From Ureibacillus sp. FSL W7-1570 (GTDB taxonomy: Bacteria; Bacillota; Bacilli; Bacillales_A; Planococcaceae): DNA of 64,000 nucleotides. The position numbers and the translations under genes are program-made. Location of the stretch: contig NZ_CP151979.1 of assembly GCF_038593265.1 (NCBI RefSeq), positions 2,184,001 to 2,248,000 on the forward strand, in the 5' to 3' direction. Below the pieces are notes generated by a model, which saw only the letters and a program-made list of their open reading frames with translations, was not told the origin of the DNA and searched no databases. This document shows positions 28,633 to 45,842 of this stretch, piece after piece. Each line of letters opens with the position of its first letter. The stretch's first letter is position 1.

Positions 28633-28668
28633 AAAAGCTGTCCGAAACATTTACATCGGACAGCTTTT
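28633..28668. terminator. Bidirectional terminator between the flavoprotein gene and the nickel-type importer
   Basis: AAAAGCTGTCCGA pairs with TCGGACAGCTTTT. It sits between convergent genes and overlaps the stop of the last importer gene. It marks the end of the hydrogenase/importer gene set. Confidence 0.85.
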
Positions 28669-29265
28669 TAATTGATTAAAATCAATGATGCGATCGCTAA
28701 TTCGTTCCAGCAGGGAAATGTGATGGCTGATGGCCAATACTCCGATATTCCGCTCTTTTACAAGCCGAATGAGGGCATGCCATATTTGCGCCTGTGTAAT
28801 GGCGTCGAACATGCTGGTAATTTCATCGGCAATAATATACCGGGTATCGGGATGAAAGGCGCGGGCAATGCAAAACCTTTGCAGCTCGCCGCCGGAGAGT
28901 TCATGGGGCCTGCGATTGAACCACTCTCTTTTTATACCAAGGATATCAATGATTTCTTTATCCAGCTCCTCCACTTCCTCGATTGTTTCCGACAGCTTCC
29001 ATTTTGGGTTGATGGCTTGTTCAGGATGCTGCCAAATCAACTGCACCGGATAAACTTTTGGAAAAACGCTCTTTTCTCCGTCAATAATGACTTCCCCTTC
29101 AGCAGGGGAAAGGTAGTTCGCCATGATTTTCGCAAGGGTCGTCTTTCCAGAACCGCTTTTGCCGAACATGCCGACGATTTCGCCCCGTTCCAACGCAAAA
29201 TTAACGTTTCGAAACAGCCATGTTGAACGATTGTACTGGAAACTGATATTTTTGCACTTAAGCAT
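28651..29265 (-). CDS. nikE: Nickel/peptide-type ABC importer ATPase (NikE-like)
   Basis: 204 residues, short for the family. Walker A is GKSGSGKTT, the signature is LSGGELQRFCIARAF, the Walker B region is YIIADEITSMFD and the H-loop is LAISHHISLL. The C-terminal oligopeptide-transporter extension is missing, as in NikE-type subunits. The start overlaps the nikD-like stop by 8 bp. It is the last gene of the long minus-strand set and ends in a strong terminator. Confidence 0.8.
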   Translation of the reverse strand: MLKCKNISFQYNRSTWLFRNVNFALERGEIVGMFGKSGSGKTTLAKIMANYLSPAEGEVIIDGEKSVFPKVYPVQLIWQHPEQAINPKWKLSETIEEVEELDKEIIDILGIKREWFNRRPHELSGGELQRFCIARAFHPDTRYIIADEITSMFDAITQAQIWHALIRLVKERNIGVLAISHHISLLERISDRIIDFNQLKSCPM

Positions 29266-30238
29266 AAAAGCACCTTACCATCTCGTATTTTCCGATCTTT
29301 TGTAATTCAGGCTTTTCCGCCCTGCATCTTCTCGTCGCGATTGGACAACAATCTGCAAAGGAACAGCCTGCCAGCTCTTCTGCAGGGGAAGGCTGTGAAC
29401 CTTCAATAGGAATAAACCCGTTTTGCGGCAATGCATTCCAAAGCGCCCTTGAATAAGGATGACGGAATTTCCCGCCCTTCTTCAAATATTTTCTGTCCAC
29501 AATTTCAACCGTTTCCCCCGCATAGAACACCGCAATTTTATCTGCGATTTTCATTGCCGCTTCCAAATCGTGGGTAATCATGACCACACCCCGATGATCC
29601 CTTGCCAACATTTTTAATTGGAATAACAATTCGTCAAGCGCTTCCGCATCTAATCCATTGGTTGGTTCATCCGCAATAATCAGCTTCGCTTCACTTGCCA
29701 ATGCCATGGCGATAAAAATTCTGCGAATCATCCCGCCTGAACATGCGGAAGGAATTTGGTGATATATCTCCGGATCCAATCCCACCTTCCGGAATATTTC
29801 TTCCACCGTTTTTTGCTTATTTTTCTGTTTCACCAATGCTTTTACTTGCTTTCCAATTTTCATCAACGGATCCAAAGCATTGGTCATTTGCGGAATAAGC
29901 ATGATGTCATTGCCGCGCAGCCGTTTTTTCCTTTTCTCGGTCAGCGGTTGATTTTCGTAATTCACCGAACCTTCAATCACAGAATTTTTTGGCTGAATCC
30001 CCAAAATGGCATCCGCCAACAAACTTTTGCCTGACCCGCTCGCCCCAACAACGGCCACCACTTCTCCATGTTGAATCTGTAAATGAAAATCCCTTATGGC
30101 ATACAAACGTTCACGGGCAAACCCTTTATTAAACCGTTCAATCGTTAAAGACATGTTTTTTATTTCCAGCAAAAAATGGGTTTGCACTTTCTCTATCTCT
30201 TCATTTGTTTCATGTTTCAGTTCATAAACTATGTTCAT
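29258..30238 (-). CDS. nikD: Nickel/peptide-type ABC importer ATPase (NikD-like)
   Basis: 326 residues from ATG 30236-30238 behind AGGAAAGGA. Walker A is GASGSGKSL, the signature region is CSGGMIRRIFIAMAL, Walker B is LIIADEPTNGLD and the H-loop is MITHDLEAAMK. The C-terminus carries the cysteine-rich oligopeptide-family tail (CSFADCCPIATRRCRAEKP), which may hold an iron-sulfur cluster. It partners the shorter ATPase downstream. Nickel as substrate is inferred from the linked hydrogenase operon. Confidence 0.8.
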   Translation of the reverse strand: MNIVYELKHETNEEIEKVQTHFLLEIKNMSLTIERFNKGFARERLYAIRDFHLQIQHGEVVAVVGASGSGKSLLADAILGIQPKNSVIEGSVNYENQPLTEKRKKRLRGNDIMLIPQMTNALDPLMKIGKQVKALVKQKNKQKTVEEIFRKVGLDPEIYHQIPSACSGGMIRRIFIAMALASEAKLIIADEPTNGLDAEALDELLFQLKMLARDHRGVVMITHDLEAAMKIADKIAVFYAGETVEIVDRKYLKKGGKFRHPYSRALWNALPQNGFIPIEGSQPSPAEELAGCSFADCCPIATRRCRAEKPELQKIGKYEMVRCFYA

Positions 30239-30254
30239 TGATTAAATCCTTTCC

Positions 30255-31091
30255 TCAATTCGGATTCAATAATTTTCGCAGGTTATTTCCCAACACATCA
30301 AACATGACAACCATTGAAATCAATGATAATCCGGGAAACAGCACAAGCCACCACATGCCGGTCGTCAAATATTTCATTGATTCCGATAAAATAATGCCAA
30401 TGGCCGGCTGTTCAGGCGATAAGCCAAATCCTAAAAAGGTGACGGCCGATTCATGCAATATGGCATGTGGAAACAATAATATAAATCCTACAAATAATTG
30501 GGGGATCAATTGCGGTAAGAAATGCCGCCTGATGATCCACATACGGGATTTTCCTAATTTCTTAGATATTTGTACATATTCGGCCGATTTGATTTGCATC
30601 AGTTCCGCACGCAACACCCGTGTCAGCGAAGGCCAATGGGTAAGAGCGATGCCAACCACAACGCCTTTTACTCCTCCACCTAATACAAAGGCAATTAAAA
30701 TCAAAGCCACAAGGTGGGGGATGCTTAAAAACAAATCGATAAGACCTGTTACAATTGCATCGAAAAATTTGTTTATAGAAGATAACAAACTGAAGATAAG
30801 GGCTATTAATGTACTGATCGTTGCCGCCAGCAAGCCGACTTGCAAACTTAAATGAAGACCCAAAAATGTGCGGTAAAACATATCCCTTCCTAACCAATCC
30901 GTTCCAAAAAGGTGTTCGACGGAAGGGCTGAGATTTTTTTCACTCATATTCGCCTCGATCTGCTCATCACCGATCAAAAAACCGCTAAAAGCAATGATCA
31001 GAAATAACAATGCGGTTACGGTTAATTTCATCAACACCCGTTTGCGGTGGACCGTATTTCCAAGTCCAATTGTAATGGAATGATTTTTCAT
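30255..31091 (-). CDS. nikC: Nickel/peptide-type ABC importer permease (NikC-like)
   Basis: 278 residues with a first helix near residues 25-45, the soluble segment SPSVEHLFGTDWLGRDMFYR typical of DppC/NikC proteins, and five more helices. The coupling loop is near TRVLRAELMQIKSAEYVQ. Its start overlaps the nikB-like stop by 4 bp (ATGA-type junction). Confidence 0.85.
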   Translation of the reverse strand: MKNHSITIGLGNTVHRKRVLMKLTVTALLFLIIAFSGFLIGDEQIEANMSEKNLSPSVEHLFGTDWLGRDMFYRTFLGLHLSLQVGLLAATISTLIALIFSLLSSINKFFDAIVTGLIDLFLSIPHLVALILIAFVLGGGVKGVVVGIALTHWPSLTRVLRAELMQIKSAEYVQISKKLGKSRMWIIRRHFLPQLIPQLFVGFILLFPHAILHESAVTFLGFGLSPEQPAIGIILSESMKYLTTGMWWLVLFPGLSLISMVVMFDVLGNNLRKLLNPN

Positions 31092-32080
31092 ATCGTTTCA
31101 CCATTTTTCATCCGTACATCGATGAGGTAATACAACAAATCGGCCAATAAATTGCCGATAAACACAAACAACGTACTAAATACAACGATTCCCAGCAACA
31201 GGGGAACATCACTATTCATTCCTGCTTGGACGATGGCTTGTCCCAAACCCGGATAAGAAAATACTTGTTCAGCTAAAATGGCCCCTCCAAACAATTCTCC
31301 AAATGAGGCAAAGTGCACAGAAATGGCAGGGAATAACGTATTTCGCAAACCATGTCTGGCAAAAAGCCGGAAACCTTCTTCCCCCTTTGCCCGTGCGAAT
31401 CGTATAAATTCGGTGTTAAAAACGTCCATCACTTTTTGCCTTGTATGAAGGGTGATATTGGAAACGCCAATGATACTTAATGTCAAAGCAGGGAGCACCA
31501 TATGCTTTATTTGATCCAGCCAGGTCACTTCATCTGATAGCATCCCAATCGGGGTCCCCAAACCAATCGGAAACAAGCCGAGCCACATGGAAAAGACAAT
31601 CAGCAATAATATCCCTATCCAAAAGGCCGGGGTGGAAGCGAGGATGAAACAATAAGATTTGATTGCCCGGTCCATCCAAGATCCTTCGTTCATCCCCGCA
31701 ATCACACCTAATGCGTAGCCAAAAATGCCGGAGATAATCCAGGAAATGGCCATCAGCATAAAGGAGGCGAGAAACCTTTCTTGAATGATGGACAACACCT
31801 CTTGCCGGTACAATAGGGAAGTGCCTAAATCCCCATGCAAAAACATATTCAACCAATTAAGAAATTGCTGTGTTTTTGATTCATCGACACCAAAATATTC
31901 AGCAAGTTGTTCCTTTTGCTCTTCGCTGACCACCATCATCTCCGCCCCGAGATAGGATTGGATGGGATCGACAGGCGAGAAGCTGACGAGTATGAAAGAG
32001 AACAAGACAACGGCAAATAGCAATATGGCAAATTTCAATGTGCGCAATAGAATAAATTTTCCTATATTCAAGAGTTGCAA
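31088..32080 (-). CDS. nikB: Nickel/peptide-type ABC importer permease (NikB-like)
   Basis: 330 residues, six helices, with the DppB/NikB hallmarks: an N-terminal helix followed by SPVDPIQSYLGAEM, LNMFLHGDLGTSLLYRQEV, and the coupling segment DVFNTEFIRFARAKGEEG. It forms the translocation pore with the NikC-like subunit. Confidence 0.85.
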   Translation of the reverse strand: MQLLNIGKFILLRTLKFAILLFAVVLFSFILVSFSPVDPIQSYLGAEMMVVSEEQKEQLAEYFGVDESKTQQFLNWLNMFLHGDLGTSLLYRQEVLSIIQERFLASFMLMAISWIISGIFGYALGVIAGMNEGSWMDRAIKSYCFILASTPAFWIGILLLIVFSMWLGLFPIGLGTPIGMLSDEVTWLDQIKHMVLPALTLSIIGVSNITLHTRQKVMDVFNTEFIRFARAKGEEGFRLFARHGLRNTLFPAISVHFASFGELFGGAILAEQVFSYPGLGQAIVQAGMNSDVPLLLGIVVFSTLFVFIGNLLADLLYYLIDVRMKNGETI

Positions 32081-32103: not shown

Positions 32104-33702
32104 TCACTCTTCCCATGTCCAATCTGCAATAAATTCCGTTATCGGCCATCCGTGTCCATGGGGTTGTATCTTCTGTTCGCCTATATTCAAATGTTCATTC
32201 ACAACATATAAGTGCTGAAGATTCACCAACCAAACCCATGGAGCATCGCCCAAAGCAGAAAAGCCCGTTTCTCCATCCCATTGGGCTTTTTTCCAATATT
32301 CATTAGCTTCCTCCGGCGTTATAGCATGAATAGCCTGGTCCATATATTGGTCGACTTTTTTGTTCGAATAATAGTTAGCATTGGAATAGCCTTGGCCACG
32401 GTATTTGCTATGGTACAGGTGGTAAATTTCAATCGGGTCATGGCTTCCCCATCCCATAACGACTGGCGTTGAATGCATAACTTCCTCGATTTCGCTCCAG
32501 CTTTTGCCTTCCGTGTTGACCTCAATGCCGATTTCTTTGGCCATTTGTTTAAATGCAATGGCCAACGATTGGCGCGTTTGGTCACTGGCGGGATATACCA
32601 ATGTAAAACTTGCCTTCTCTCCGTCTTTTTCAAAAATTCCATCCGCGTTTTTCCGCCATCCGGCATCCATTAAAATTTGTTCTGCCGCTTCTGTATCCCC
32701 ATCTTCAAAAACGGTCTCTTCATTCCACCATGGCAGTTTATCCGCTACCGAAAAAGCAGGAGTGCCAAATCCTTCAAGAACATCTTCCACTAGCTTGTCC
32801 CTGTCAATGCCGATATTCAGCGCTTTTCGAATGGCCAGATCCGATGTAACCTCATGCCCAATTTCAATTCCTTTTTCAGCATCGTATCCCGGTTTTACGA
32901 AAGGCAGCATAATCCCCCGGTTATCTACACTATCCAGGGCGATTAACTTCATTCCAGAAATGGATTCTTTCGCTAAGTTTGGCGGAACGGATACAATATC
33001 CACCTGTCCCGCTTTTGCCGCTAAAAATGCGGCATCCTGGGATAAAAAGAGGAATGTTAATTTTTTAAAAGGAGATTTTTTTCCGTAATAATAAGGATTC
33101 TCCTCGACAATTAGCTGCTGCCCTTTATCCCATTGCACTAACTTATATGGTCCAGAGCCAATTGGATTTTCCCGATAGTTTTCAGAATAGGCATGTTTCG
33201 GCACAATTCCTAGCATTGTTAATGTGTATAAAAAGGTCGATTGGGGTCTTTCTAAAACAAATTTCACTGTTTGGGCATCAAGTTTTTCAATCTTTTTTAA
33301 GTTTTGTAAGTCCACCACTGATTGGCTGTTTTTGGCCGTTTCAAAGGTAAATATCACATCCTCGATTGTCAGCGGCTCACCGTCGGAAAACTTCACATCA
33401 TCGCGAATTTTTACAGTCCACTCCAATCCATCTTCACTCACGCTATAGTCCACGGCCAAATCCGGCTGCACATTGAAATTTCGGTCCAGTGTAAGCAAGG
33501 TGCTTTGAAACAATGGGGAACCGTACCTGCCCCAACCTGTCGTCGGATCGAATCCATCGGTCGGTTCTGAGCCGATTGCCAATACTAAACTATCTTTTTT
33601 CTTGCCAGTTTCTGAGTCAGAAGCTTGGGATGTGCATGCAACCAGCAGGAAACATGCAAAAATCAGCACTGACATAAGTAGGAATCGATTATTAACCTTC
33701 AT
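32104..33702 (-). CDS. nikA: Nickel/peptide-type substrate-binding lipoprotein (NikA-like)
   Basis: About 532 residues from ATG 33700-33702, with AAAGGTGAG upstream. The lipoprotein signal ends in LLVACTS. The mature part is a family-5 extracellular solute-binding protein (LAIGSEPTDGFDPTTGWGR, then the domain FSDGEPLTIEDVIFTFET). The start is 11 bp from the hypF stop, so the importer is read from the hydrogenase operon. That context, not sequence, is why I call the ligand nickel or a nickel chelate; peptides are the alternative. Confidence 0.8.
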   Translation of the reverse strand: MKVNNRFLLMSVLIFACFLLVACTSQASDSETGKKKDSLVLAIGSEPTDGFDPTTGWGRYGSPLFQSTLLTLDRNFNVQPDLAVDYSVSEDGLEWTVKIRDDVKFSDGEPLTIEDVIFTFETAKNSQSVVDLQNLKKIEKLDAQTVKFVLERPQSTFLYTLTMLGIVPKHAYSENYRENPIGSGPYKLVQWDKGQQLIVEENPYYYGKKSPFKKLTFLFLSQDAAFLAAKAGQVDIVSVPPNLAKESISGMKLIALDSVDNRGIMLPFVKPGYDAEKGIEIGHEVTSDLAIRKALNIGIDRDKLVEDVLEGFGTPAFSVADKLPWWNEETVFEDGDTEAAEQILMDAGWRKNADGIFEKDGEKASFTLVYPASDQTRQSLAIAFKQMAKEIGIEVNTEGKSWSEIEEVMHSTPVVMGWGSHDPIEIYHLYHSKYRGQGYSNANYYSNKKVDQYMDQAIHAITPEEANEYWKKAQWDGETGFSALGDAPWVWLVNLQHLYVVNEHLNIGEQKIQPHGHGWPITEFIADWTWEE

Positions 33703-33713
33703 AGCGCTCACCT

Positions 33714-35702
33714 TTATTCAATGATTGTTGCTGAAAGAATGGCTGCTTGCCCTAAGCTGATGCAATTGTCGCCCAATGGAACTTCATCATCATATAAAAT
33801 TTCAATCTTTGAACCTTCCAATAAATCGAAAATGTCGGAAACCAGCAGACTATTATGGAACACCCCGCCGGACAATACGGCGTAATTCGTATCATACTCT
33901 TCACAAAGGGACTGAATCACATCCACAACCGCCTGGGCCAAACTGCGATGGAATCCCCTTGCAATCACTGATGGCGATTGGCCTTTCAGCTTTGATTGAA
34001 TCATTTCTTCAAATAATGGGCGATAATCCAACTCTTCCCCTGTCCATGGGAATGTGTACACTTCTTCCACTTGTGATTGGCTCGCCAAGTATTCCAAACC
34101 TATAGCCGCTTCCCCTTCAAAGGAGTTGTCCAGGTGGAAACCTAATAACGCGGCCACCGCATCATACAATCTTCCCACGGATGTTGTCGGGAATGTGCGA
34201 ATATTTTTTTCCTTGATTTTCAATGCCTTATGGAATGAATCCGGAAGCTGCAAACGATCCAGCAGCTCTTTGTCAAAGTCACCTATAAAACCTGCCAAAG
34301 CTTGAAGCGGAAACGTTGCTGCCGCATCTCCGCCAATCAAAGACGCTTTTCTTAAATGGCCGCGCCGCGTAAATCCTTCCTGTACACTTCCTACAAAAAT
34401 TTCGCCGCCCCAAATTTCGCCGTCCTCACCGTATCCGGCACCGTCAAAAACAATGCCGACAACCCGTTCCGACAGTTTATTTTTCACCGCCAATATGGAG
34501 GCAAGATGGGCTTTATGATGTTGCACAGCGACATGTTGACAGCCTTCCAATGTTTGGGCGAATTTCGTTGTAAAGTATTCCGGATGCAAATCATAACCGA
34601 TAATGGTTTCGCTCAAGTCCACCCCATGGATGGCCAAATAATCCTTCACTGTCCGTTCAAACTTCAACTGTGTGCCATATTTCGTCATGTCGCCAAGATG
34701 GTGGCTCATAACGACTTTCTGGTCTTTTACCAGTGTAATGGTGCTCTTTAAATCTGCGCCGACCGTTAAAATCGGGCGGGAAGAAGGCAACGCGATATCC
34801 AGCAAGTTGTTATAGCCCCTGGATCTTCTGAAAGGCACCGCTCCGAGTTTCGTCACTTTCAATACCGTGTCGTCAACGCTCCGCTCGATTTCACGTTCAC
34901 CGATCAAAGCCGCACATTGGAAATCTTCCATCAATCCCGTTAATTGGTCATCTTTATGAATCGTCGGTTCTCCGGGATAGTTGGCGCTCGTCATCACGAT
35001 GTAACGCGGCGCGCCAAAGTGGAACAAAAGATGCTGCAATCCTGTATAAGGCACCATGAGGCCGATGTCTGTATTGTTCGGCGCAACGATGGAGCTCAAT
35101 TCTTCATTCTTTGATTTGGCAAGCAAAATTGGACGTCTTTTCGATAGTAAAATCTCTTCTTCCTTTTCAGATAAATGAACAATTTCTTTTGCTGCCTCCA
35201 AATCTTTTACCATGATGGCAAAGGCTTTTCGTGGGCGGCCCAATTTATTTCTCATGACTTGAACCGCTTTGCCATTAAAGGCATCACATACTAAATGGTA
35301 GCCGCCATTGTTTTTCACAAGAAGGGTTTCCCCGGCATTCAACAGTTCGGCTACCCGCCGGAACATCTCTTCACCTTCAACACGTTGTCCATTTTCAAAC
35401 AGATAATAGTTTGGACCGCATTGCGGACAGCAGTTTAATTCCGCATGATATCGGCGGTTCTGCGGATTTTCATATTCCTCTTTGCAGGATGGGCACATTT
35501 CCCAATCCGCCATGGTTGTATTTTGGCGTTCAAATGGGACATTTTTCATTAACGCATATCTTGGTCCGCAATTAGGGCAGCCGATATATGGATATAAATA
35601 ACGTTTACTTTCCGGGTCAAACAATTCTTTTAAACAATCATCGCAGATGGCCGTATCAGGTAAAAAAGTATAGGTCGTCATCGTACGATAAGGCGTTGTC
35701 AT
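33714..35702 (-). CDS. hypF: Hydrogenase maturation carbamoyltransferase HypF lacking the acylphosphatase domain
   Basis: 662 residues. HypF makes the cyanide ligand precursor: it converts carbamoyl phosphate to a carbamoyl-adenylate and passes the carbamoyl group to HypE. Zinc-finger pairs (CDDC, CPNC, CPSC, CPQC) open the protein almost at residue 20. The YrdC-like domain and then the Kae1-like domain with HHKAHLAS follow. The usual N-terminal acylphosphatase domain of about 90 residues is absent. Only 34 bp separate this gene from hypE, so the missing part is not encoded upstream. Confidence 0.92.
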   Translation of the reverse strand: MTTPYRTMTTYTFLPDTAICDDCLKELFDPESKRYLYPYIGCPNCGPRYALMKNVPFERQNTTMADWEMCPSCKEEYENPQNRRYHAELNCCPQCGPNYYLFENGQRVEGEEMFRRVAELLNAGETLLVKNNGGYHLVCDAFNGKAVQVMRNKLGRPRKAFAIMVKDLEAAKEIVHLSEKEEEILLSKRRPILLAKSKNEELSSIVAPNNTDIGLMVPYTGLQHLLFHFGAPRYIVMTSANYPGEPTIHKDDQLTGLMEDFQCAALIGEREIERSVDDTVLKVTKLGAVPFRRSRGYNNLLDIALPSSRPILTVGADLKSTITLVKDQKVVMSHHLGDMTKYGTQLKFERTVKDYLAIHGVDLSETIIGYDLHPEYFTTKFAQTLEGCQHVAVQHHKAHLASILAVKNKLSERVVGIVFDGAGYGEDGEIWGGEIFVGSVQEGFTRRGHLRKASLIGGDAAATFPLQALAGFIGDFDKELLDRLQLPDSFHKALKIKEKNIRTFPTTSVGRLYDAVAALLGFHLDNSFEGEAAIGLEYLASQSQVEEVYTFPWTGEELDYRPLFEEMIQSKLKGQSPSVIARGFHRSLAQAVVDVIQSLCEEYDTNYAVLSGGVFHNSLLVSDIFDLLEGSKIEILYDDEVPLGDNCISLGQAAILSATIIE

Positions 35703-35736: not shown

Positions 35737-36762
35737 TCAACAAATCCGTGGAAGGGGATCACCGACCAACATATCAATCGCCCTCGTTCCACCATAAGAA
35801 GAGCGGGAAAGGACAATATGGCGATCGCTTTCAAACACTTCCCCAATAATGGCCGCCTGTTCTCCTCCAGGGACTTGCTGTATGGCTTTTAATGCATCTT
35901 GCGCATATTCCTCTGAAACAACCGCGATAAATTGCCCTTCATTCGCGATATGCATCGGATCAAGCCCCAATATTTCACAAGCGCCGCGTACTTCCGGATG
36001 CACTTTGATGGCTTCTTCTTCAAGCATGATCGCCACTTGGGCATCCCTTGCCAATTCGTTTAATGCGGTTGCCATTCCACCACGGGTTGGATCGCGCATC
36101 CATTTTAGCCCCGGTGCTGCCGCATTAATCAGTTTGGAAACAAACGGCCAAACTGAGCGTGTGTCGGATTTGATATCCGCTTCCAGATCGAGATCTCCCC
36201 GGGCGAAAAGGATGGTGATGCCATGGTCACCAATGGGTCCGGAAAGGATGATTTTATCTCCCTTTTTGACTCTGCTTGCTGATAAATTGACTCTTGGGTC
36301 CACAAGCCCGATGCCTGCTGTCGTAATAAACAGCTTGTCCGCCTTTTGATGTTCGACCACTTTTGTATCGCCGCCGACAATGGCCACATTCGCTTTTTCC
36401 GCCGCTTCATGCATGGCTTTTATTTCCGATTCCAATATTTCCGTTTCAAGGCCTGCTTCTATGATCAAAGTTGTAACTATGGCCAGCGGTTTCGCACCGC
36501 CCATGGCAATGTCATTGACCGTTCCGTTGATTGCCAATTCCCCGATGGATCCCCCAGGGAATCTCAAAGGATTTACGACAAAGCTGTCCGCTGTAAAGGC
36601 GATTTTTGTTTGATCCGCTTGTACATAGGCCGCATCGTTCAATTCTTTTACATTTAAATACGGCACCAGAAGCCCCTCAATTAATCTCCGGCTTGCCTTC
36701 CCGCCGGCTCCATGGGCAAGTTGAATGGTTGGTTCTCTAAAAGCGACCTTCTCTTTCAGCAT
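35737..36762 (-). CDS. hypE: Hydrogenase maturation protein HypE
   Basis: 341 residues of the AIR-synthase-like fold. The N-terminal IQLAHGAGGKASRRLI is the HypE opening and the C-terminus ends in PRIC, whose last cysteine accepts the carbamoyl group from HypF and becomes the thiocyanate donated to iron. Order hypC-D-E-F is canonical. Confidence 0.95.
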   Translation of the reverse strand: MLKEKVAFREPTIQLAHGAGGKASRRLIEGLLVPYLNVKELNDAAYVQADQTKIAFTADSFVVNPLRFPGGSIGELAINGTVNDIAMGGAKPLAIVTTLIIEAGLETEILESEIKAMHEAAEKANVAIVGGDTKVVEHQKADKLFITTAGIGLVDPRVNLSASRVKKGDKIILSGPIGDHGITILFARGDLDLEADIKSDTRSVWPFVSKLINAAAPGLKWMRDPTRGGMATALNELARDAQVAIMLEEEAIKVHPEVRGACEILGLDPMHIANEGQFIAVVSEEYAQDALKAIQQVPGGEQAAIIGEVFESDRHIVLSRSSYGGTRAIDMLVGDPLPRIC

Positions 36763-37956: not shown

Positions 37957-38226
37957 TTATTCAAACTGATACCCTCTCACTTCCTCCATCGCTTCCTTGT
38001 CTTCTCCTATTTCCTGCAATAGTTGTAATTGCTCTTTCGCCTGCTCTTCGCTGATTTTATTCATTGCGAATCCGACGTGAATCAACACCCAATCGTTTTC
38101 ATTCACATTTTCATGTTTGATCAAACTGATGTTCACTTTGCGTTTCACACCGGAAACATCAATCATCGCATATTGATTTTGATCATCCAGCAACTCGACA
38201 ATTTTTCCTGGAATCGCCAAGCACAT
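37957..38226 (-). CDS. hypC: Hydrogenase maturation chaperone HypC
   Basis: 89 residues beginning MCLAIPGKIVEL, where Cys2 is the conserved ligand that binds HypD and the iron unit. The rest has the usual small beta-barrel (DWVLIHVGFAMNKISEEQAKE). It is next to hypD in the same operon. Confidence 0.95.
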   Translation of the reverse strand: MCLAIPGKIVELLDDQNQYAMIDVSGVKRKVNISLIKHENVNENDWVLIHVGFAMNKISEEQAKEQLQLLQEIGEDKEAMEEVRGYQFE

Positions 38227-38247: not shown

Positions 38248-39111
38248 TTAATTCCCGGTCCTGATCCACACTTGCTTATTTTCAATTCGCACAGGAAACG
38301 GCTCCAATTGGATATGCGGGACAGTAACGCATTCCCCATTTGTCAAATCAAAGCGAAGTGTATTGTCATGTCCGATTAAAACCATATGATCTTCCTGTTC
38401 CACCGTCTCCTGTGTAAATGGTATTCCCCGATGTGGACAGCGGTTCCGATAGGCCATGATCTTGTTGTCTATGATGATTAACAGCACGTCCACTTCATCG
38501 ATGGTGAGGTAGTATGGCTTGTTTTCTTCCAATTCGTCGACATTCGGGCCTTCTCTCCACCCCGAATTCATTAAATCCTCTTCATCGACGTTCCGTTTGT
38601 AAGGCATATACCCTGGAGATAAATCGTTGACCATCTCGACTCTTTCGACTTCCGGAACCCGTGCTTTGATGGCTTCTTCAACGCCGTTTTTCAATGTCAC
38701 CGCCGATAAGGAGCAGCCTGAACAAGCCCCTTGCATCCGCACATAGACCACATTGCCATCGATTTTTTCCAATTCAATATCCCCGCCATGGGAATTTAAA
38801 TAAGGCCGAATCTCTTCCATGACCGCAGCGACTTTTGTATACAGGTTTTGCTTTATGATTCCATGCAATAAAAGCATCGCATAGACAGAAGGATCCTCTA
38901 TGGCCTCCAACATCAACTGTTTTCCTTCATCCGTTGAGCGGACAATTTTTACAAGCTTTCTAAGGGCATCTTCATGAAACGCTTCAATGGCTTTCTTTAA
39001 CTCCATGATTTTTTTCAATTGGTAGTCAGTAAAATCCATTTCCCGTATCTCTCTTAACACTTGATCAATCCGCTCTGTCAATTGTTCCACACTTTTTGAT
39101 TGTGTGCCCAA
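38248..39111 (-). CDS. NifU-domain/Rieske-like fusion protein of the hydrogenase operon
   Basis: 287 residues from TTG 39109-39111 behind GGGGGGTG. Residues about 1-80 are helical, about 90-165 are a NifU C-terminal domain with C130-SG-C133, and about 190-287 are a Rieske-type beta domain. The first Rieske ligand pair is present (C225-P-H227), but in the second the cysteine is leucine (L245-I-G-H248), so a normal [2Fe-2S] Rieske cluster would lack one ligand. Rieske-type proteins accompany group 2a hydrogenases and are proposed electron carriers or assembly factors. Here an iron-sulfur assembly or transfer role is inference. Confidence 0.8.
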   Translation of the reverse strand: MGTQSKSVEQLTERIDQVLREIREMDFTDYQLKKIMELKKAIEAFHEDALRKLVKIVRSTDEGKQLMLEAIEDPSVYAMLLLHGIIKQNLYTKVAAVMEEIRPYLNSHGGDIELEKIDGNVVYVRMQGACSGCSLSAVTLKNGVEEAIKARVPEVERVEMVNDLSPGYMPYKRNVDEEDLMNSGWREGPNVDELEENKPYYLTIDEVDVLLIIIDNKIMAYRNRCPHRGIPFTQETVEQEDHMVLIGHDNTLRFDLTNGECVTVPHIQLEPFPVRIENKQVWIRTGN

Positions 39112-39117
39112 TCGGCT

Positions 39118-39492
39118 TCACCCCCCAAAAGCTGCATGCTGTTCAAGCACTTCTTCAGCTTTTTGTTTTAACAGCTCTTCAAATACTCCCTTTGCCATTT
39201 TTTCTACAATCGCTTCCACCGTTACTTCTTGTTGCAGAACTTGTTCCGGATCATAACGCCGTTTTGAGAGCGCTTGTAGAATAAAACATGAACCTGCAGG
39301 ATTATCGAGCAAAAATTCTTCAAAAAAAGCATCAACGAATTTATCCAGCCATACCCCATTGCCATAAGGATCCGTGCGCAAAAGGTGTAACGCATTTTCC
39401 ACCCCTTCCGAACGTTGGACGGCCCGCTCTACAAACCGCTCTGTGGCAATTTGCAACAGCGTATTGAAATATTGCTTTTCGTAATCGTTCAC
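39118..39492 (-). CDS. Unknown 124-residue protein of the hydrogenase operon
   Basis: Starts at GTG 39490-39492 behind GGAGGGAAA. It is acidic and mainly helical (RFVERAVQRSEGVENALHLL; FVDAFFEEFLL; EKMAKGVFEELLKQK) with one cysteine and no signal peptide or membrane segment. The stop is 6 bp before the NifU-Rieske gene. I do not recognise the family. Its position between a TPR protein and a NifU-Rieske fusion suggests a hydrogenase-specific assembly partner. Confidence 0.75.
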   Translation of the reverse strand: MNDYEKQYFNTLLQIATERFVERAVQRSEGVENALHLLRTDPYGNGVWLDKFVDAFFEEFLLDNPAGSCFILQALSKRRYDPEQVLQQEVTVEAIVEKMAKGVFEELLKQKAEEVLEQHAAFGG

Positions 39493-39505: not shown

Positions 39506-40720
39506 CTACTTTTTGGAAAGTTCTTCTTGTTTCAACTTGATTTCCTGTAACAAGTCCTCTACCACTTTTGCCGATTCACGATCGCCCAGTTCTTCAAAGA
39601 TTTGTTTCGCTTCAGTCAATTTTGGCACCGCACTGGAGAATGCGCCTAGATGAGAGAGGGCTGTACCTTGATTCGCAACGAGCCGCGCATAGCCATGAGG
39701 ATCTGTTTCCTTTTTACGCACCTTCAGTACATCTTCATAAAGGGCGACAGCTTCCCACAAGTTGTCTTCAATATGGGAAGACTTTGCATATTGCAGGGCA
39801 TTGGCCAAATTGATCGTTGCACTGCACCATAAGTCGGTATGGTTTTCTTTATCCAAATAACGCAATGCTTCCCTGAGCGATTGAATGGCCATCGCATTTT
39901 TCAAGTGGTAGTTATGGGCATTGGGCGGCATGGCTATATAAGACAACGCCAAATTCATATGGATCATGGCATAGTTTTCAGGATACGTTTCTTTCCGATA
40001 TGTTTTCAAAGCCGTGTTGTAACATTTGATGGCCTCTAAATAATAGGTTTTATTGCCTCTGTCCGCTATTTCCTGGTAGGCTGTCCCCATCTGGAAGGTC
40101 AGCTCTGCCCGCATAACGTCAAAGGGTGAACGTTCGATCAGCGATAAAGCGGTTTTATATAATTCAACCAATTGATTGTCGACCATTCCCAATGATTGTT
40201 TCGTTGCGGCGACTTCACTTAAGAGCCGCGCCGAAAAGATGGGCGAAATTTCATTGACAATTTGAGCGGCTTCTTCCAGCAATTGAATCCCTTTCGTCCA
40301 GCTGTTATTCTGAAACGCTTCATAAGCATGTGTAGCCATAATGAATGCCCGGATCTCGTCAGCCGTATCTTCGTCATATCGGGGAGGTTCCTGCTTCATA
40401 TTCAAACGCCAGGCTACCGCATCCAAAAGCAGTCTCAAGTCTCCGCCCAACATGGATTTCGCTTTTTCGTAATGGGATTTTTCAGGATATAAAATGAATC
40501 GATTAAAGTGGCCTTCTTTGGTGTCAGGCAACAACTCATCAACCCGCTCCACAGGTTCCCCCTGAATGGCGGCTAAAAAAAATTGCCATTCTTTTGGACA
40601 AGGTTCAGGAATAAAACCTTGCAATAAAGAAGGCATGATGGTGTCCGCATTTTTGATCGGCGGCAATAAAAAGAATCCGGCTGTACCTGGAAATACTCCA
40701 ATTGGCTGACGTTTCAACAT
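39506..40720 (-). CDS. TPR-repeat protein of the hydrogenase operon
   Basis: About 404 residues from ATG 40718-40720, with GGGGGGAG at good spacing; an ATG two codons upstream is the alternative. A proline-rich N-terminal domain (residues 1-110) is followed by about six helical repeats, e.g. AELTFQMGTAYQEIADRG, MIHMNLALSYIAM and ATINLANALQYAKSS. TPR proteins are regularly linked to group 2a hydrogenases. Its role is probably holding subunits or maturases together; this is inference. Confidence 0.8.
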   Translation of the reverse strand: MLKRQPIGVFPGTAGFFLLPPIKNADTIMPSLLQGFIPEPCPKEWQFFLAAIQGEPVERVDELLPDTKEGHFNRFILYPEKSHYEKAKSMLGGDLRLLLDAVAWRLNMKQEPPRYDEDTADEIRAFIMATHAYEAFQNNSWTKGIQLLEEAAQIVNEISPIFSARLLSEVAATKQSLGMVDNQLVELYKTALSLIERSPFDVMRAELTFQMGTAYQEIADRGNKTYYLEAIKCYNTALKTYRKETYPENYAMIHMNLALSYIAMPPNAHNYHLKNAMAIQSLREALRYLDKENHTDLWCSATINLANALQYAKSSHIEDNLWEAVALYEDVLKVRKKETDPHGYARLVANQGTALSHLGAFSSAVPKLTEAKQIFEELGDRESAKVVEDLLQEIKLKQEELSKK

Positions 40721-40771
40721 GTTCATCTCCCCCCTAAAATCAATTACCCTCTGAAACGGCTACAAAACTTC

Positions 40772-41071
40772 TCATTGGTTTAAATATAGTGGAATCCGAA
40801 GTGCCAATGCCTCTTCATCCCATTGGACATCTCTTGGTCCAAAGTCCACATCATCCGGCAAAAATTCAGATATGAAAACAGAACGATCCCCTCTGGCATT
40901 GCGGTATTTTAAAATCAATCCTCCGGCTCCTACATAATTCACCGGCATGATGAGCAAATCTTGTCCTTGCAGAATGGCAATGATCGCGCCAGTAGGGAAA
41001 TAGTGTTGAGCGATTTCCGCGGGAATTTGCAAATAGCCTGTTTCAGTTATTTGACACTTCAATTTCTTCAC
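40772..41071 (-). CDS. Unknown 99-residue beta-rich protein of the hydrogenase operon
   Basis: Starts at GTG 41069-41071 inside the end of the protease gene (29-bp overlap). The N-terminus KCQITETGYLQIPAEIAQHY resembles AbrB-type swapped-hairpin folds, and the rest is beta-rich with the segment GGLILKYRNARGDRS. No membrane segment. Translational coupling to the protease suggests it acts with it or on the same subunit. I do not recognise a named family. Confidence 0.7.
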   Translation of the reverse strand: MKKLKCQITETGYLQIPAEIAQHYFPTGAIIAILQGQDLLIMPVNYVGAGGLILKYRNARGDRSVFISEFLPDDVDFGPRDVQWDEEALALRIPLYLNQ

Positions 41072-41519
41072 CTGATACTTTTTTGATTATTTTTTTCGCC
41101 AACTTCATCACGCTTTCTTCCACTTCCGGTGTAAGCCCCGTACCGTATGATAAATCTTGGGCTTCAACCAAATAGACCGTTACTTTTTTTGGAAACTCAT
41201 TTTTCAATAACCATCGCCCCATGGCAATGGCGTGATCCCAACGGAAATCATGCATATTGATGTTTTCTAACGGAATGGCTTCCACTTCTTCCCCCGGGAT
41301 TTCAAAGACCGTCCCCGGTTCCGCTCCCGTCGTGCAAGCATCAATAATGATCAATTCTTCAGCTTTTCCGATTTGAAATACGACATCCATTCCTGCCGTT
41401 CCGCCATCCGCCAAACGCACATTTGAAGGAACGCCTAAATCCCATAACTTTCGTATCAAAATAGGGCCGGCACCATCATCTTTCCGGATCAAATTCCCAC
41501 AGCCAATAATTGTGATCAT
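41043..41519 (-). CDS. hupD: Hydrogenase maturation endopeptidase (HupD/HyaD family)
   Basis: About 158 residues from ATG 41517-41519 with GGAGG upstream. IGCGNLIRKDDGAGPIL carries the conserved nickel-sensing glutamate/aspartate position, and MHDFRWDHAIAMGRWLL provides the conserved histidine region. The enzyme removes the C-terminal peptide of the large subunit after nickel insertion. The large subunit just upstream has an 18-residue tail after its final histidine. Confidence 0.9.
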   Translation of the reverse strand: MITIIGCGNLIRKDDGAGPILIRKLWDLGVPSNVRLADGGTAGMDVVFQIGKAEELIIIDACTTGAEPGTVFEIPGEEVEAIPLENINMHDFRWDHAIAMGRWLLKNEFPKKVTVYLVEAQDLSYGTGLTPEVEESVMKLAKKIIKKVSGEEIEVSNN

Positions 41520-41550
41520 GTTGTCCTCCATCTATAAAACTTTTATGAAT

Positions 41551-41640: not shown

Positions 41641-43242
41641 TCAGAAGTTTGTCACCCGATATTTGGCCAATTGCTTGTTTGTTTTGCCGTCATATGCATG
41701 AACTGTACATACGAGACAGGAGTCGTAACTTTGCGCAATATGTGCCAATTCCACCGGATCTTCCGGATTTTTGATTGGCGTACCGATCAGTGCTGTTTCA
41801 ATCGGACCTCTTTGGCCAAAACGGTCACGTGGTCCAATATTCCATGCAGTTGGTGTAATGATTTGGTACTTTTCAATTTTTCCGTCTTTCACTTGGATCC
41901 AATCCGCCAAGAATCCCCGGGCTGCTTCCGTAGCTCCGAAACCGCGTCCTTCAATCAATTCGCCAGGATTCACATAGAATTTTTCATTCAAGTCAATTTG
42001 TTTTAACCAATTTTGCACATAACGGATATATTTTGGCGCTTCATGGAATCGTGCCAACACGCGAACCATAGCGCTCGGTCCAATTTCTTTTACAATGTTG
42101 GAAATCAACGGATCATAATCTTGCCAATCTTCCGCACCTTCTCGTCCTGCAATCATTTGGCGGGCAAGCGGTCCGACCTCCAGCGGTGTTTCGCCGCTAT
42201 CCAATAAATAGCGCGGAGCTTTTGCGAATGTATATTTTCCTTGTTTTACCCCTTCTTCAGGATCAAGCGGATTTGTAAATCCTTCAAACGGATGATATGA
42301 ACCTGTTCCTTCATAGAAGGAATGCGTATGGTCTTCCCGGATACGGGCTTGGTCAAAATCATGGTAGTTCTCGCCGTCATATACGCCTGAACGGGCGATC
42401 AACGCACCGTTTCTCGAGTCGATTGTAGGGTGAGTATATTTCTCAGGATTTGGGAAACTTCCTGCAGCCAAGTACTTGCCAGGACCAGCCCCATATTTGT
42501 CCAATCCAATATCCATACTGTATCGGATAAATAATCCCAAATCCGATTCATAGTGCTCTTCTTTTTCTTCCAACCATTCAAGCACATCGGACCATGTTTT
42601 GTTCTCGAGCCATCTTTCCATTGAACAGCCGAGTAAAATATCCTCCAGCCAGTTTTTCCGGAAATGTTCCATAATGGATATCGAACGGGTAACGTCCGAG
42701 AGGGTTGGCGCACACATGACGCCGCCTGGAATCATGAAACTTGAGTGCGGCCATTGTCCGCCAAAAATCGCATAGATTTCCACCGGTTTGGCGGAAAGCG
42801 TTACGCCTTTTTCATAGTTCACACCGACAAATGGCGCCCATCTTCTATTCACTTCTTCATATAAAGGCGATGATTGATAGTTTTTATGTGTCAGCCCTAT
42901 GGCAAATAGCGCATAGAACCAACGAGGGATACTTTGAATCGTTTCCACCGCTTGCGCGATATTTCTCACCAAAGTGGCATTTGGCGGCACTTCAGTGTGA
43001 AACGCGGTATCGAGTGCATAGGCGGACTTTGTTAAGTGGCTGCCACCACAAATACCGCAGATCCTTGGGGTCATGATGAGACCCGCTTGCGGATCTTTGC
43101 CAACCAATATTTTTTCAAATCCCCGGAACATCGTCGCTTCCGTCCAGGCATCAACTACTACACCATTTTCAATCGTAACTTTGACATCTAAATCCCCTTC
43201 TACACGTCCTAAAGAAGGGACTTTAATCGTTTGCTGTGCCAA
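41641..43242 (-). CDS. hucL: [NiFe] hydrogenase large subunit, group 2a type
   Basis: 533 residues from TTG 43240-43242 behind GGAGGGGAG. The active-site cysteine pairs are RICGICGGSH (C62, C65) near the N-terminus and DSCLVCTVH (C509, C512, H515) near the C-terminus; an 18-residue tail follows H515 for removal by the protease. It binds the Ni-Fe(CN)2CO site that splits H2. DSC in place of the common DPC motif, the cytoplasmic small subunit and the Rieske/TPR linkage fit group 2a (HucL/HupL). The symbol hucL is used by analogy. Confidence 0.9.
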   Translation of the reverse strand: MAQQTIKVPSLGRVEGDLDVKVTIENGVVVDAWTEATMFRGFEKILVGKDPQAGLIMTPRICGICGGSHLTKSAYALDTAFHTEVPPNATLVRNIAQAVETIQSIPRWFYALFAIGLTHKNYQSSPLYEEVNRRWAPFVGVNYEKGVTLSAKPVEIYAIFGGQWPHSSFMIPGGVMCAPTLSDVTRSISIMEHFRKNWLEDILLGCSMERWLENKTWSDVLEWLEEKEEHYESDLGLFIRYSMDIGLDKYGAGPGKYLAAGSFPNPEKYTHPTIDSRNGALIARSGVYDGENYHDFDQARIREDHTHSFYEGTGSYHPFEGFTNPLDPEEGVKQGKYTFAKAPRYLLDSGETPLEVGPLARQMIAGREGAEDWQDYDPLISNIVKEIGPSAMVRVLARFHEAPKYIRYVQNWLKQIDLNEKFYVNPGELIEGRGFGATEAARGFLADWIQVKDGKIEKYQIITPTAWNIGPRDRFGQRGPIETALIGTPIKNPEDPVELAHIAQSYDSCLVCTVHAYDGKTNKQLAKYRVTNF

Positions 43243-43280: not shown

Positions 43281-44252
43281 TCATGGTACAAACAGATCTT
43301 CTTTTGCCCATTTAGGAGCCACTGTACGAGCTACGGCAGCATGTGCTGAGTAGCTTAATGAATCCATGCCTGTTGGCACTTCTTTCGGAATAGTTCCCAA
43401 GATTTTTTGCGTTTTGAATACTGTTCCTGGTGCCAAGTCAAAGAATGGGAATTGTGGTTCTGTACATCCGATACATGGCATACCTGCTCTTGTTTTGGAA
43501 GATTGACGGTTCCATAAAATACGGTTGCAGGATGAACGGGTCATCGGTCCGCGGCAGCCTTGCTCATAGAATAGGCAGCCTTTTCTCGTTCCTTGTCCAA
43601 ACTCTTCCACCGGTTCTTTATATTCATAATATTGAACGCGTGTACAACCTGTTTGAGTGAATGTTTTAAAGAACGTTTCAGGGCGGTGATATTCATCCAA
43701 TGTAATATCTGAAGTTCTGCCTGTCGCAATGGCTACAAGGATTTGCGTCACCCAGTCCGGATGGGCAGGGCACCCTGGAATGTTGATCACCGGTAAACCG
43801 GCTTGTGAGCGGAATTCCGTTGATAAAAATCCGCCAGGTTTATCCTTGAAGAATTGCAATCCTGTTGATTCGGATGGATTCGGACTTGTTGCAGGAATTC
43901 CACCCCAACATGCACAATCCCCGATAGCCACAACAAATTTTGCTTTATGGGCCAAATCATAAATCCAATCTTTTTTAGGACGTTCAAACAATGTATCGAA
44001 GCGCCCCGTTCCATTCGGGCCTTGAATGACTGTTCCTTCGACAACCAAGATGTCCAATTCGGTACGGTCTTCAAGGATGTCGTCCAAAATCCCTTTCACT
44101 TGATAGCCGAATTCCATGGAGACCGAATGGTGGTAAAGAATATTAATTCCAAAATCCGTCACTAAATCAATCACGGTAGGTTCATCTGCATTCAGAAACG
44201 ATTGAGTATTTCCATTGCAGGCTCCACCATGAATCCAAAACACATTTACCAT
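43281..44252 (-). CDS. hucS: [NiFe] hydrogenase small subunit, group 2a type
   Basis: 323 residues, ATG 44250-44252 behind GGAGGTG. There is no Tat signal: the protein starts directly with VNVFWIHGGACNGNTQS. The first cluster motif, CxxC in most hydrogenases, is C12-N-G-N15, leaving three cysteine ligands for the proximal site, as with the [3Fe-4S] clusters reported for Mycobacterium Huc. Other ligands are in GDCACWGG, GCPAHPDW, KGCLFYEQGCRGP and MPCIGCTEP. There is no C-terminal membrane helix and no cytochrome b gene nearby. It carries electrons from the active site to an acceptor. Confidence 0.9.
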   Translation of the reverse strand: MVNVFWIHGGACNGNTQSFLNADEPTVIDLVTDFGINILYHHSVSMEFGYQVKGILDDILEDRTELDILVVEGTVIQGPNGTGRFDTLFERPKKDWIYDLAHKAKFVVAIGDCACWGGIPATSPNPSESTGLQFFKDKPGGFLSTEFRSQAGLPVINIPGCPAHPDWVTQILVAIATGRTSDITLDEYHRPETFFKTFTQTGCTRVQYYEYKEPVEEFGQGTRKGCLFYEQGCRGPMTRSSCNRILWNRQSSKTRAGMPCIGCTEPQFPFFDLAPGTVFKTQKILGTIPKEVPTGMDSLSYSAHAAVARTVAPKWAKEDLFVP

Positions 44253-44303: not shown

Positions 44304-44981
44304 TTAAAACGCTTTCATTTTTTCTTCTATTAAGAAATCAATCCATTCATCAATCCCCATATCTTTTTTTGCTGATACTTCAAAAACTTTCATATTAGGT
44401 CTTGAATGATAGATTGCTTGGTAAAACATCTCTTTGTCAAAATCCACCGCTTCCGCCAAATCCATTTTTGTAATGATGGCTACATCTGCGCTGTTGACGA
44501 TGGTCGGATATTTTTCCGGTTTATCTTCCCCTTCCGTTGTTGAAAATAAGACAACCCGCATATTTTCGCCCAGATCATAGCTGGAAGGGCAAACTAAATT
44601 ACCGACATTTTCGATGAATAAAAAATCCAGCTCATTTAAATTCCAATGTCGGAGCGAATCTTCTATCATTTGGGCTTCAAGATGACAAACCGTCCCAGTT
44701 GTGATTTGTTTCACCATTGCTCCGCTCTGTTCCAGCCGGTGTGCATCGTTTTCTGTTGCCAAATCGCCTACCAGTGCCGCTACGCTATATTTTTGGCTGA
44801 GGCGCCTCAGCACTTCCGTAAGCAATGTTGTTTTTCCGGAGCCGGGGCTGGAAACAATGTTCACCACGTATACTTCGTGGTCATGAAAACGCTTTCTTAA
44901 ATCTCTGGCCAGGATGTCATTTTTCTTCAAAACATTCTCTCTTATTTTGACGATACGTGGCTGTTCAATTGCTTGGCTCAA
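44304..44981 (-). CDS. hypB: Hydrogenase nickel-insertion GTPase HypB
   Basis: 225 residues from TTG 44979-44981 behind GGGGGTTAA. Walker A is SSPGSGKTTLL and the switch regions follow (GDLATENDAHRLEQSG; ENVGNLVCPSSYDLG). The N-terminal CxxCGC nickel site and His-rich stretch of some HypB proteins are absent; the metal site at the GTPase dimer interface should remain (TGTVCHLE). It works with HypA to insert nickel into the large subunit. Confidence 0.93.
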   Translation of the reverse strand: MSQAIEQPRIVKIRENVLKKNDILARDLRKRFHDHEVYVVNIVSSPGSGKTTLLTEVLRRLSQKYSVAALVGDLATENDAHRLEQSGAMVKQITTGTVCHLEAQMIEDSLRHWNLNELDFLFIENVGNLVCPSSYDLGENMRVVLFSTTEGEDKPEKYPTIVNSADVAIITKMDLAEAVDFDKEMFYQAIYHSRPNMKVFEVSAKKDMGIDEWIDFLIEEKMKAF

Positions 44982-44983
44982 TA

Positions 44984-45331
44984 TTAACCCCCACCTATTA
45001 GTTCATATAATTCAATTTCTTTCCCTTCTAAAATCTGATCAGTGCCTGAGTTGCATTCCGGGCATTTGATTGGAACCGGATTTTGCAACACATACTCTTT
45101 TTCACATTGCGGGCAAAAAATTTTTAACGGAATTTCTTCGATTATCAAACGTGCTCCTTCGAGCATTGTTCCTTCTGTTGCAATGTCAAAGGAAAATTCC
45201 AATGCTTCCTTTACAACACCAGAAAATACTCCCAACCTTAATCTAAGTGCATCCACCTTGTTCAAATTATTTTGTTCCGCAGTTTCTGCCGCCAATTGGA
45301 CCAGGCTGAATGCAATAGACAGTTCATGCAT
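44984..45331 (-). CDS. hypA: Hydrogenase nickel metallochaperone HypA
   Basis: 115 residues starting MHELSIAFSL, with His2 the nickel ligand. The zinc site is CPQC...CPEC near the C-terminus. Its start overlaps the DUF1641 stop by 8 bp and the gene ends 2 bp before hypB. Confidence 0.95.
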   Translation of the reverse strand: MHELSIAFSLVQLAAETAEQNNLNKVDALRLRLGVFSGVVKEALEFSFDIATEGTMLEGARLIIEEIPLKIFCPQCEKEYVLQNPVPIKCPECNSGTDQILEGKEIELYELIGGG

Positions 45332-45842
45332 TTTTAAGCTCCTTTGAAAGTACTTTTGCGAAATTCAAAACAAATTGAATGGCAGGCTGAATTTCCGGGT
45401 TTGTCAGTTCTTTCATCAATCCAAAAATGCCGGAGCTGCCTGAACCTTTGTAATCCTTTTGCGAAGCTGCTTCTGACGCAGAGTCGCATAAATTGCTTAA
45501 AAACTTGAGTGTTCTTTCATTCAAGAATGTTTCTTCAATTTTCTTGAATTCTTCGGAGTTGATTAAATTTTGGAAACGCGTTAATGTTTCGATGCTTTTT
45601 TGCATATTGCTGATGAAGTTGTTCCTTGGCAATTCTTCCCGCAAAGCCACAACCATTCTGTTGACGGAATCCGCCATTTCTGGACTGCGTGAAATAAACT
45701 GCTCAATGGCTGCAAACAGTACGTTGAATTTCTCCAAATTATCAAGCAAGGTGATCAATTGGGAAATTGTTCCCGGCTCTGTCAACTTGTTCATTAAGAC
45801 TGCTTCACTATTAATGCTAACCACATTGTTTTGGCTGCTCAA
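45324..45842 (-). CDS. DUF1641-family protein, first gene of the hydrogenase operon
   Basis: 172 residues from TTG 45840-45842 with a perfect AAAGGAGGTG. Mostly helical; the central stretch (RFQNLINSEEFKKIEETFLN) and C-terminal GIFGLMKELTNPEIQPAIQF fit DUF1641. Proteins of this family partner menaquinone-linked formate dehydrogenases in Bacillus (YrhD). As leader of an operon for a soluble hydrogenase with no membrane subunit, it is a candidate for the scaffold or quinone-access protein (the role of HucM in Mycobacterium). That role is inference. Confidence 0.8.
   Translation of the reverse strand: MSSQNNVVSINSEAVLMNKLTEPGTISQLITLLDNLEKFNVLFAAIEQFISRSPEMADSVNRMVVALREELPRNNFISNMQKSIETLTRFQNLINSEEFKKIEETFLNERTLKFLSNLCDSASEAASQKDYKGSGSSGIFGLMKELTNPEIQPAIQFVLNFAKVLSKELKNA

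Follow-up and report, generated by a model that had tools for sequence, protein, structure and literature searches.

A complete Huc-type [NiFe] hydrogenase operon with a predicted menaquinone adaptor and two altered maturation factors in a Ureibacillus lineage

The huc locus and its host

The 64,000-nucleotide stretch of the Ureibacillus sp. FSL W7-1570 genome studied here (the window; C1:2184001-2248000 of a single-contig genome of 3.28 Mb) carries 19 minus-strand genes, running from position 45842 to position 28651, that together encode all components of a [NiFe] hydrogenase system of the Huc type (group 2a; Table 1). We consider it highly probable that they form a complete Huc operon whose product reduces menaquinone without a cytochrome b, by way of a HucM homologue of the DUF1641 family encoded by the first gene. 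Neighbouring genes of the array overlap or are separated by at most 109 nt, and their translations showed all reading frames to be intact. A first-pass annotation, made from the sequence alone, had described a complete hydrogenase locus on one strand at 28651-45842 in a spore-forming host; every part that it named (hypA-F, hucS, hucL and the protease, TPR and NifU-Rieske genes) was found, and the genome contains Spo0A, a marker of spore-formers. Beyond that annotation, we recognized the DUF1641 protein as a HucM homologue, a five-gene ATP-binding cassette (ABC) transporter (28651-33711) at the end of the array, the fusion of the Rieske domain to NifU with its second ligand pair missing, and a HypF protein without its first domain.

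For comparison we used 80 hydrogenase loci, the best 80 of 420 relatives. The nearest named HucL loci belong to a Lysinibacillus metagenome-assembled genome (95%), Ureibacillus thermosphaericus (93%) and U. terrenus (92%), whose HucL proteins are identical to those of genomes G248, G254 and G252, respectively. Within the order, HucL was detected (E 1e-80) in 5 of 261 genomes, all of them members of the window's genus, which is thermophilic. The window and three loci, L055 (U. thermosphaericus), L008 and L010, make up what we call the 'Ureibacillus-like' lineage. Papers are cited by PMC number, each from a part of its text.

Assignment of HucL and HucS to group 2a

Among PDB sequences, HucL matched Huc of Mycobacterium smegmatis with an E-value of about 1e-235 and the next hydrogenase with 5e-63, whereas the corresponding values for HucS were 4e-158 and 2e-36. 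HucL has the L1 and L2 CxxC motifs (RICGICGG with C62 and C65; SCLVCTVH with C509 and C512) and extends 18 residues beyond H515, the end point of M. smegmatis chain 7uus_A, thus combining the cleavable tail and the cysteine motifs of a group 2a large subunit. All nine Huc residues that we checked, chosen from the Huc structure paper (PMC10017518) to cover the gas channel, the D-His site and the menaquinone contacts, are kept, namely E15, I64, S104, L112, H166 and R442 (R443 in Huc) of HucL and K212, Y229 and Y301 of the menaquinone site of HucS. The HucS cysteines, which bear on the three [3Fe-4S] clusters typical of a group 2a small subunit, also align with those of Huc, including the lone cysteine at the GGAC site.

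In a quick-search tree of 59 of the 95 collected HucL rows, with long outgroup branches flagged and the Streptantibioticus record L098 left out, the window protein falls, together with Bacillota sequences and a copy from a Thermus plasmid, within the clade containing mycobacterial Huc. Outside this clade fall HyaB and HybC of E. coli, HoxG and HoxC of C. necator, the Ideonella and Sulfurovum sequences and the alpha subunit of Acaryochloris, which we take to represent groups 1, 2b and 3. The group 2a placement given by the first-pass annotation is thus borne out both by the PDB matches and by a phylogeny that, within the limits of this quick tree, sets HucL apart from those groups. Its two further observations hold as well: the HucS N-terminus (MVNVFWIHGGACNGN) has no twin-arginine translocation (Tat) signal as judged by eye, and no Ni-hydrogenase cytochrome b family was matched by Pfam in the window, the sole PF01292 match of the genome scoring below the cut-off and lying elsewhere. 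A search of the genome for a second [NiFe] large subunit (PF00374, E 0.001) returned two matches, both of them pieces of hucL.

Lineage-specific changes affect 2 of 217 near-invariant columns of HucL and 1 of 148 of HucS. The ratio of nonsynonymous to synonymous substitution rates (dN/dS) is 0.02-0.18 across the huc genes where usable, and 0.02-0.03 for HucL, with dS partly saturated. As judged by these alignments, the core subunits are under strong purifying selection.

The first gene of the operon as hucM

By homology and position, the DUF1641 gene at the head of the array is classified here as a hucM homologue. A profile of twelve Bacillota DUF1641 members (the window and 11 loci) retrieved HucM (7uus_Q) at 3e-7, YjlC at 3e-7 and an NDH-2 membrane coupling protein at 9e-7, and hhalign aligned the Bacillota family with a mycobacterial HucM profile at 98.7% over 170 columns (16% identity). 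In a Mycolicibacterium locus, the open reading frame (ORF) preceding hucS is HucM itself (4e-50). Plain blastp with the window protein matched an ORF in 58 of the 80 loci, while profiles placed a HucM-family ORF no more than 3.5 kb from hucS in 68, the same number being reached with a Bacillota-only profile. Among the remaining 12 loci, the ORF lies at 3.6-3.8 kb in three, there is no upstream room in eight, and it is missing from one (L067). The profiles, both built partly from the loci that were scanned, matched 72 (32-row profile) and 71 (Bacillota-only) of 9173 ORFs. In the genus, DUF1641-type hucM occurs in 4 of 25 genomes, all within the 5 of 25 that carry hucL; the fifth, G248, is an assembly of 640 contigs.

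In the HucM homologue, mean hydropathy peaks at 1.02, leaving it without a strongly hydrophobic segment; the C-terminal 26 residues are amphipathic (shuffle p 0.004). The second DUF1641 gene of the genome encodes YjlC (4e-54) and directly precedes an NDH-2 gene (YjlD, 1e-175); the PDB entries 9snk and 9pxk contain both partners, YjlC and NDH-2. In the literature, Huc reduces menaquinone, with HucM forming the oligomer and its stalk (PMC10017518), and the formate dehydrogenase of B. subtilis requires ForE for the reduction of menadione, a menaquinone analogue (PMC8808070). Profile homology, synteny, the YjlC/NDH-2 pair and the role of ForE together lead us to read the first gene as hucM; on the profile evidence, the HucM homologue, YjlC and, more weakly, ForE belong to one family. 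The DUF1641 protein thus probably passes electrons to the quinone pool, and its identity as a HucM homologue would explain the missing cytochrome b. In the collection of papers searched, we found none on YjlC with Ndh or on the NDH-2 'membrane coupling protein', and the link between HucM, YjlC and ForE may already be in print.

Separately, the HucM homologue of 14 loci, mostly from Chloroflexota (L022, L023, L026, L027, L034, L036, L040, L045, L049, L050, L053, L071, L081 and L083), is 268-359 aa long and aligns with the window protein in two segments, as if partly duplicated.

Proposed mechanism and points against it

Gene content, residue conservation, HucM homology and the ligand and domain losses described below are read from the sequence; complex formation, menaquinone reduction, affinity for H2, nickel transport and supplementary energy use at low growth rate are what we infer from them. 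In the proposed mechanism, HypA-F and the protease would build the NiFe(CN)2CO site in HucL, and the TPR, 124-aa and NifU-type proteins would probably help to load the iron-sulphur clusters of HucS. Mature HucSL would oxidise H2 in the cytoplasm, its electrons running along the three HucS clusters to menaquinone at K212/Y229/Y301. The DUF1641 protein would hold the complex together, contact the membrane through its amphipathic C-terminal helix, and admit and release menaquinone, so that a cytochrome b would not be needed.

Four observations weigh against this reading. A single-sequence search with the window DUF1641 protein reached HucM only at an E-value of 1.1, so the HucM link rests on profiles and synteny. 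In the twelve-member profile search ForE1 is marginal at 0.014, the unrelated FliS following at 0.037. The C-terminus of a mycobacterial HucM is less clearly amphipathic (shuffle p 0.055). Finally, efficient maturation is assumed for a system in which two maturation factors, HypF and the NifU-Rieske protein HucE, are altered.

Use of H2 by the host

No match to RuBisCO or to a MoCoBD-type CO dehydrogenase was found in the genome, suggesting that H2 would serve as a supplement to heterotrophy. Judging from homology, oxidation of atmospheric H2 is likely. That the host draws on trace H2 when starved or ahead of sporulation is plausible by analogy: at near-zero growth, expression of hucL from the same operon in Parageobacillus thermoglucosidasius increases more than 900-fold (PMC12976888). 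It should be noted that hypB and the TPR gene have almost no reads in the same expression table, and that the activity of this species was assayed on whole cells using benzyl viologen, the strain having two further [NiFe] hydrogenases (PMC12976888). The examined parts of that paper do not mention 'gas chromatography' and contain no sub-atmospheric H2 measurement. For group 2a enzymes, another survey places expression and activity mainly in the exponential phase, by inference (PMC7784904).

An alternative that we regard as possible, though doubtful, is a low-affinity uptake enzyme that burns locally made H2, for example in compost, instead of atmospheric H2. Affinity cannot be read from sequence, and the close loci include that of Hydrogenibacillus schlegelii, a knallgas bacterium. 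Kyrpidia tusciae is likewise a hydrogenotroph with HucL (PMC7784904). However, the gas-channel and cluster-side residues of Huc that were checked are all kept, and consumption of H2 to sub-atmospheric levels was inferred for three bacteria with group 2a enzymes (PMC7784904).

Loss of Rieske ligands in HucE

The hucE-like gene encodes a NifU-Rieske fusion in which the first Rieske ligand pair and the NifU CxxC motif are retained in all four lineage proteins (window, L055, L008 and L010), whereas the second Cys/His pair is changed in all four. Of the 62 other HucE rows, 60 retain the second Cys and 60 the second His. A Rieske protein with intact ligands, an associated but not a defining feature of group 2a, is therefore not what this locus encodes. 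By the ligand alignment, the Rieske domain of the lineage HucE is unable to hold a normal [2Fe-2S] cluster, although a histidine one position past the lost cysteine (IGHD) in the four proteins makes an altered ligand set conceivable. HucE dN/dS is 0.05-0.08, with dS partly saturated.

These data bear on the idea that HucE is the physiological electron acceptor of the hydrogenase. Rieske-type genes do accompany group 2a operons (PMC7784904), the ligands are conserved in nearly all other rows, and the IGHD histidine would permit a changed ligand set. Yet the second pair is gone throughout the lineage while HucL and HucS are conserved, HucE carries a fused NifU domain, and Huc itself reduces menaquinone directly (PMC10017518), so that we rate this role for HucE as quite improbable. 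With the second ligand pair gone, the lineage HucE is probably no electron relay and lies outside the electron path, which in the HucM-mediated scheme would lead from HucS straight to menaquinone.

HypF without an acylphosphatase domain

HypF of the window, L055, L008 and L010 begins at the zinc finger: it retains the Zn-finger, YrdC-like and Kae1-like domains and has lost the N-terminal acylphosphatase domain. Its match to TIGR00143 (605 bits, cut-off 466) runs from position 91 to position 739 of the 741-position profile. All 33 other hydrogenase-locus HypF proteins with alignments longer than 500 residues carry the acylphosphatase motif, as do 28 of the 29 other Bacillota HypF loci counted (the best of matches in 165 of 398 Bacillota genomes); the exception, L113, is a short locus perhaps cut by a contig end. 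Among the matches listed, at least three HypF frames from outside the window are shorter than 752 aa, namely those of 705 aa (L113), 679 aa and 638 aa, the last two lying outside the 29 loci counted for the motif. The 394-aa HypF1 of C. necator was rejected as a precedent for a short HypF, as it is far shorter. One lineage-specific change in the protein replaces KGLGGYHLACDA by KNNGGYHLVCDA.

A detached acylphosphatase domain was sought in the genome with the start of the L012 HypF and none was found, in a search run without a positive control. The sole PF00708 match of the genome (C1:730980), a protein of 98 aa, has a non-canonical loop in which GVVQGxGF is not conserved; a proposed loss of the catalytic Asn in it was dropped as unsupported by the alignment. 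HypF is a four-domain protein in which acylphosphatase and zinc finger are extras over the YrdC-like and Kae1-like domains of O-carbamoyltransferases (PMC6022934). Since the zinc-finger, YrdC and Kae1 parts are kept, our guess by analogy is that the lineage HypF may use carbamoyl phosphate directly.

Taken further, Huc in this lineage may mature and work with an acylphosphatase-less HypF and with a HucE that lacks a Rieske cluster and acts as an assembly factor, not as an electron carrier, while DUF1641 proteins serve as a general plug linking hydrogenase, NDH-2 and formate dehydrogenase to menaquinone; for this extended proposal we see the chances as even. HypF would then make carbamoyl-adenylate from carbamoyl phosphate in the manner of O-carbamoyltransferases, or be helped by another enzyme. 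Very improbable, in our view, is a decaying locus, in which the HypF domain and Rieske ligand losses would mark an enzyme no longer able to mature. In its favour, the two losses are genuine and common to the four lineage loci, and lineage-specific changes in HypF affect 13 of 113 near-invariant columns, including one at the cut N-terminus; against it, the frames are intact, HucL and HucS are nearly unchanged at such columns, and dN/dS is low for HypF (0.04-0.07, dS partly saturated) as for HucL.

The downstream transporter and the genomic neighbourhood

The binding-protein gene of the ABC transporter starts 3 nt after hypF. The transporter probably imports nickel, a function suggested by its position and by the lack of a urease match in the genome, because of which the nickel demand may rest on the hydrogenase. 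Its identification as NikABCDE was rejected: the components miss the NCBIfam equivalog cut-offs (nikA 143 of 393 bits, nikE 113 of 333, nikD 151 of 319), and only 3 of the 80 loci (L008, L010 and L055), all of this lineage, have the binding-protein gene linked to huc. The region at about 31980-34080 is a recombination tract, with 93-100% identity to U. thermosphaericus L055 in 300-base steps against 73-90% for the rest of the locus; the binding-protein gene within it has a dS of 0.04, versus 0.6-1.3 for other genes of the locus.

The leader before hucM (45843-46060) is long. Some 165 nt ahead of the first gene it contains a candidate promoter, whose TTGACA with the following AT-rich bases (TTAGTTAAATTTAATT in L055) appears by eye to be conserved in L055 and L008; the AT-rich stretch is a possible operator. 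The promoter scan overall gave 35 sites against 39.1 expected from shuffles and, with no excess, is no evidence by itself. Further upstream are a SpoIIM-family gene (46977-47594) and a region rich in transposases (47957-55385; ISL3-type, DDE_Tnp_1 and Mu-transpos_C_2), which also holds an rve-type gene slightly below the Pfam cut-off. Elsewhere in the window (19863-21201), a cobalamin riboswitch precedes a DBI_PRT (CobT-like) phosphoribosyltransferase gene.

Table 1. Genes of the huc array and candidate promoter, in order of transcription
Feature	Position	Strand	Evidence
hucM homologue (DUF1641), predicted membrane/menaquinone adaptor	45324..45842	-	Pfam DUF1641 29.8 bits (cut-off 21); profiles
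hypA, nickel insertion	44984..45331	-	PF01155 110 bits
hypB, nickel insertion GTPase	44304..44981	-	PF02492 (HypB/CobW) 82 bits
hucS, small subunit	43281..44252	-	phmmer 7uur_D E 4e-158
hucL, large subunit	41641..43242	-	phmmer 7uus_A E 1e-235; PF00374
HycI/HyaD-type maturation endopeptidase	41043..41531	-	PF01750; TIGR00072 above cut-off; blastp match in 79/80 loci
99-aa conserved accessory protein	40772..41071	-	no Pfam/NCBIfam match; blastp match in 62/80 loci
TPR protein, putative HucS assembly factor	39506..40726	-	PF13424; blastp match in 72/80 loci
124-aa conserved accessory protein	39118..39492	-	Pfam below cut-off only, NCBIfam none; blastp match in 39/80 loci
hucE-like NifU-Rieske fusion	38248..39111	-	PF01106, PF00355; ligand alignment
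hypC	37957..38226	-	PF01455
hypD	36801..37916	-	PF01924 493 bits
hypE, C-terminal cysteine (PRIC)	35737..36762	-	PF00586/PF02769; translation
hypF without N-terminal acylphosphatase domain	33714..35702	-	TIGR00143 positions 91-739 of 741; alignment
substrate-binding protein, nickel/peptide-type ABC transporter	32104..33711	-	PF00496; best NCBIfam nikA
ABC transporter permease gene 1	31088..32080	-	PF00528
ABC transporter permease gene 2	30255..31091	-	PF00528
ABC transporter ATPase gene 1	29258..30238	-	PF00005
ABC transporter ATPase gene 2	28651..29265	-	PF00005
candidate promoter TTGACA-16 nt-GATATT	46007..46034	-	promoter scan; ~165 nt upstream of first gene

Comparison with known systems

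Operons of the Huc kind are already known, also in Bacillales, and 19 Firmicutes genomes with HucL had been counted by 2020 (PMC7784904); what this analysis adds is the recognition of HucM and of two losses specific to the lineage, that of the HypF domain and that of the Rieske ligands. Huc-type enzymes are part of the sink that soils form for atmospheric H2, and H2 use by spore-forming thermophiles has received little study. The lineage-wide losses offer a natural test of which maturation parts are needed.

A close described counterpart is the huc operon of P. thermoglucosidasius 23.6 (PMC12976888, published 2026), which shares the order DUF1641-hypA-hypB-hucS-hucL-protease-hypothetical, followed by TPR, hypothetical and NifU genes and further hyp genes. 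Strain 23.6 additionally carries hydrogenases of groups 1d and 4a, unlike the window's host, where PF00374 finds one large subunit, and only here does a nickel/peptide-type transporter end the array. In the parts of that paper that were covered, HucM has no occurrence and Ureibacillus is mentioned only as a related genus. The extended hyp operon of Nostoc PCC 7120 (asr0689-alr0693) likewise places TPR and NifU-like genes between hupSL and the hyp genes, with a proposed role in assembly of the small subunit; there the repeat gene is of the NHL/TPR type, and the part of the paper used mentions no DUF1641 gene (PMC2408588).

With Huc of M. smegmatis (PDB 7utd/7uus) the system shares homologues of HucS, HucL and HucM, the catalytic, gas-channel and menaquinone residues, and the lack of a Tat signal and of a cytochrome b. 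It differs in having hypA and hypB between hucM and hucS, in a diverged and shorter HucM homologue (172 versus 188 aa), and in its altered HypF and HucE. YjlC of the Bacillus NDH-2 system and ForE of formate dehydrogenase fall into the same family by profile, with ForE1 marginal; their partner enzymes, however, are unrelated to hydrogenase, and the host has its own YjlC gene before that of YjlD/NDH-2. Labelling the DUF1641 gene as hucM indicates the likely electron exit of the hydrogenase and would make a single adaptor family the common link of hydrogenase, NDH-2 and formate dehydrogenase.

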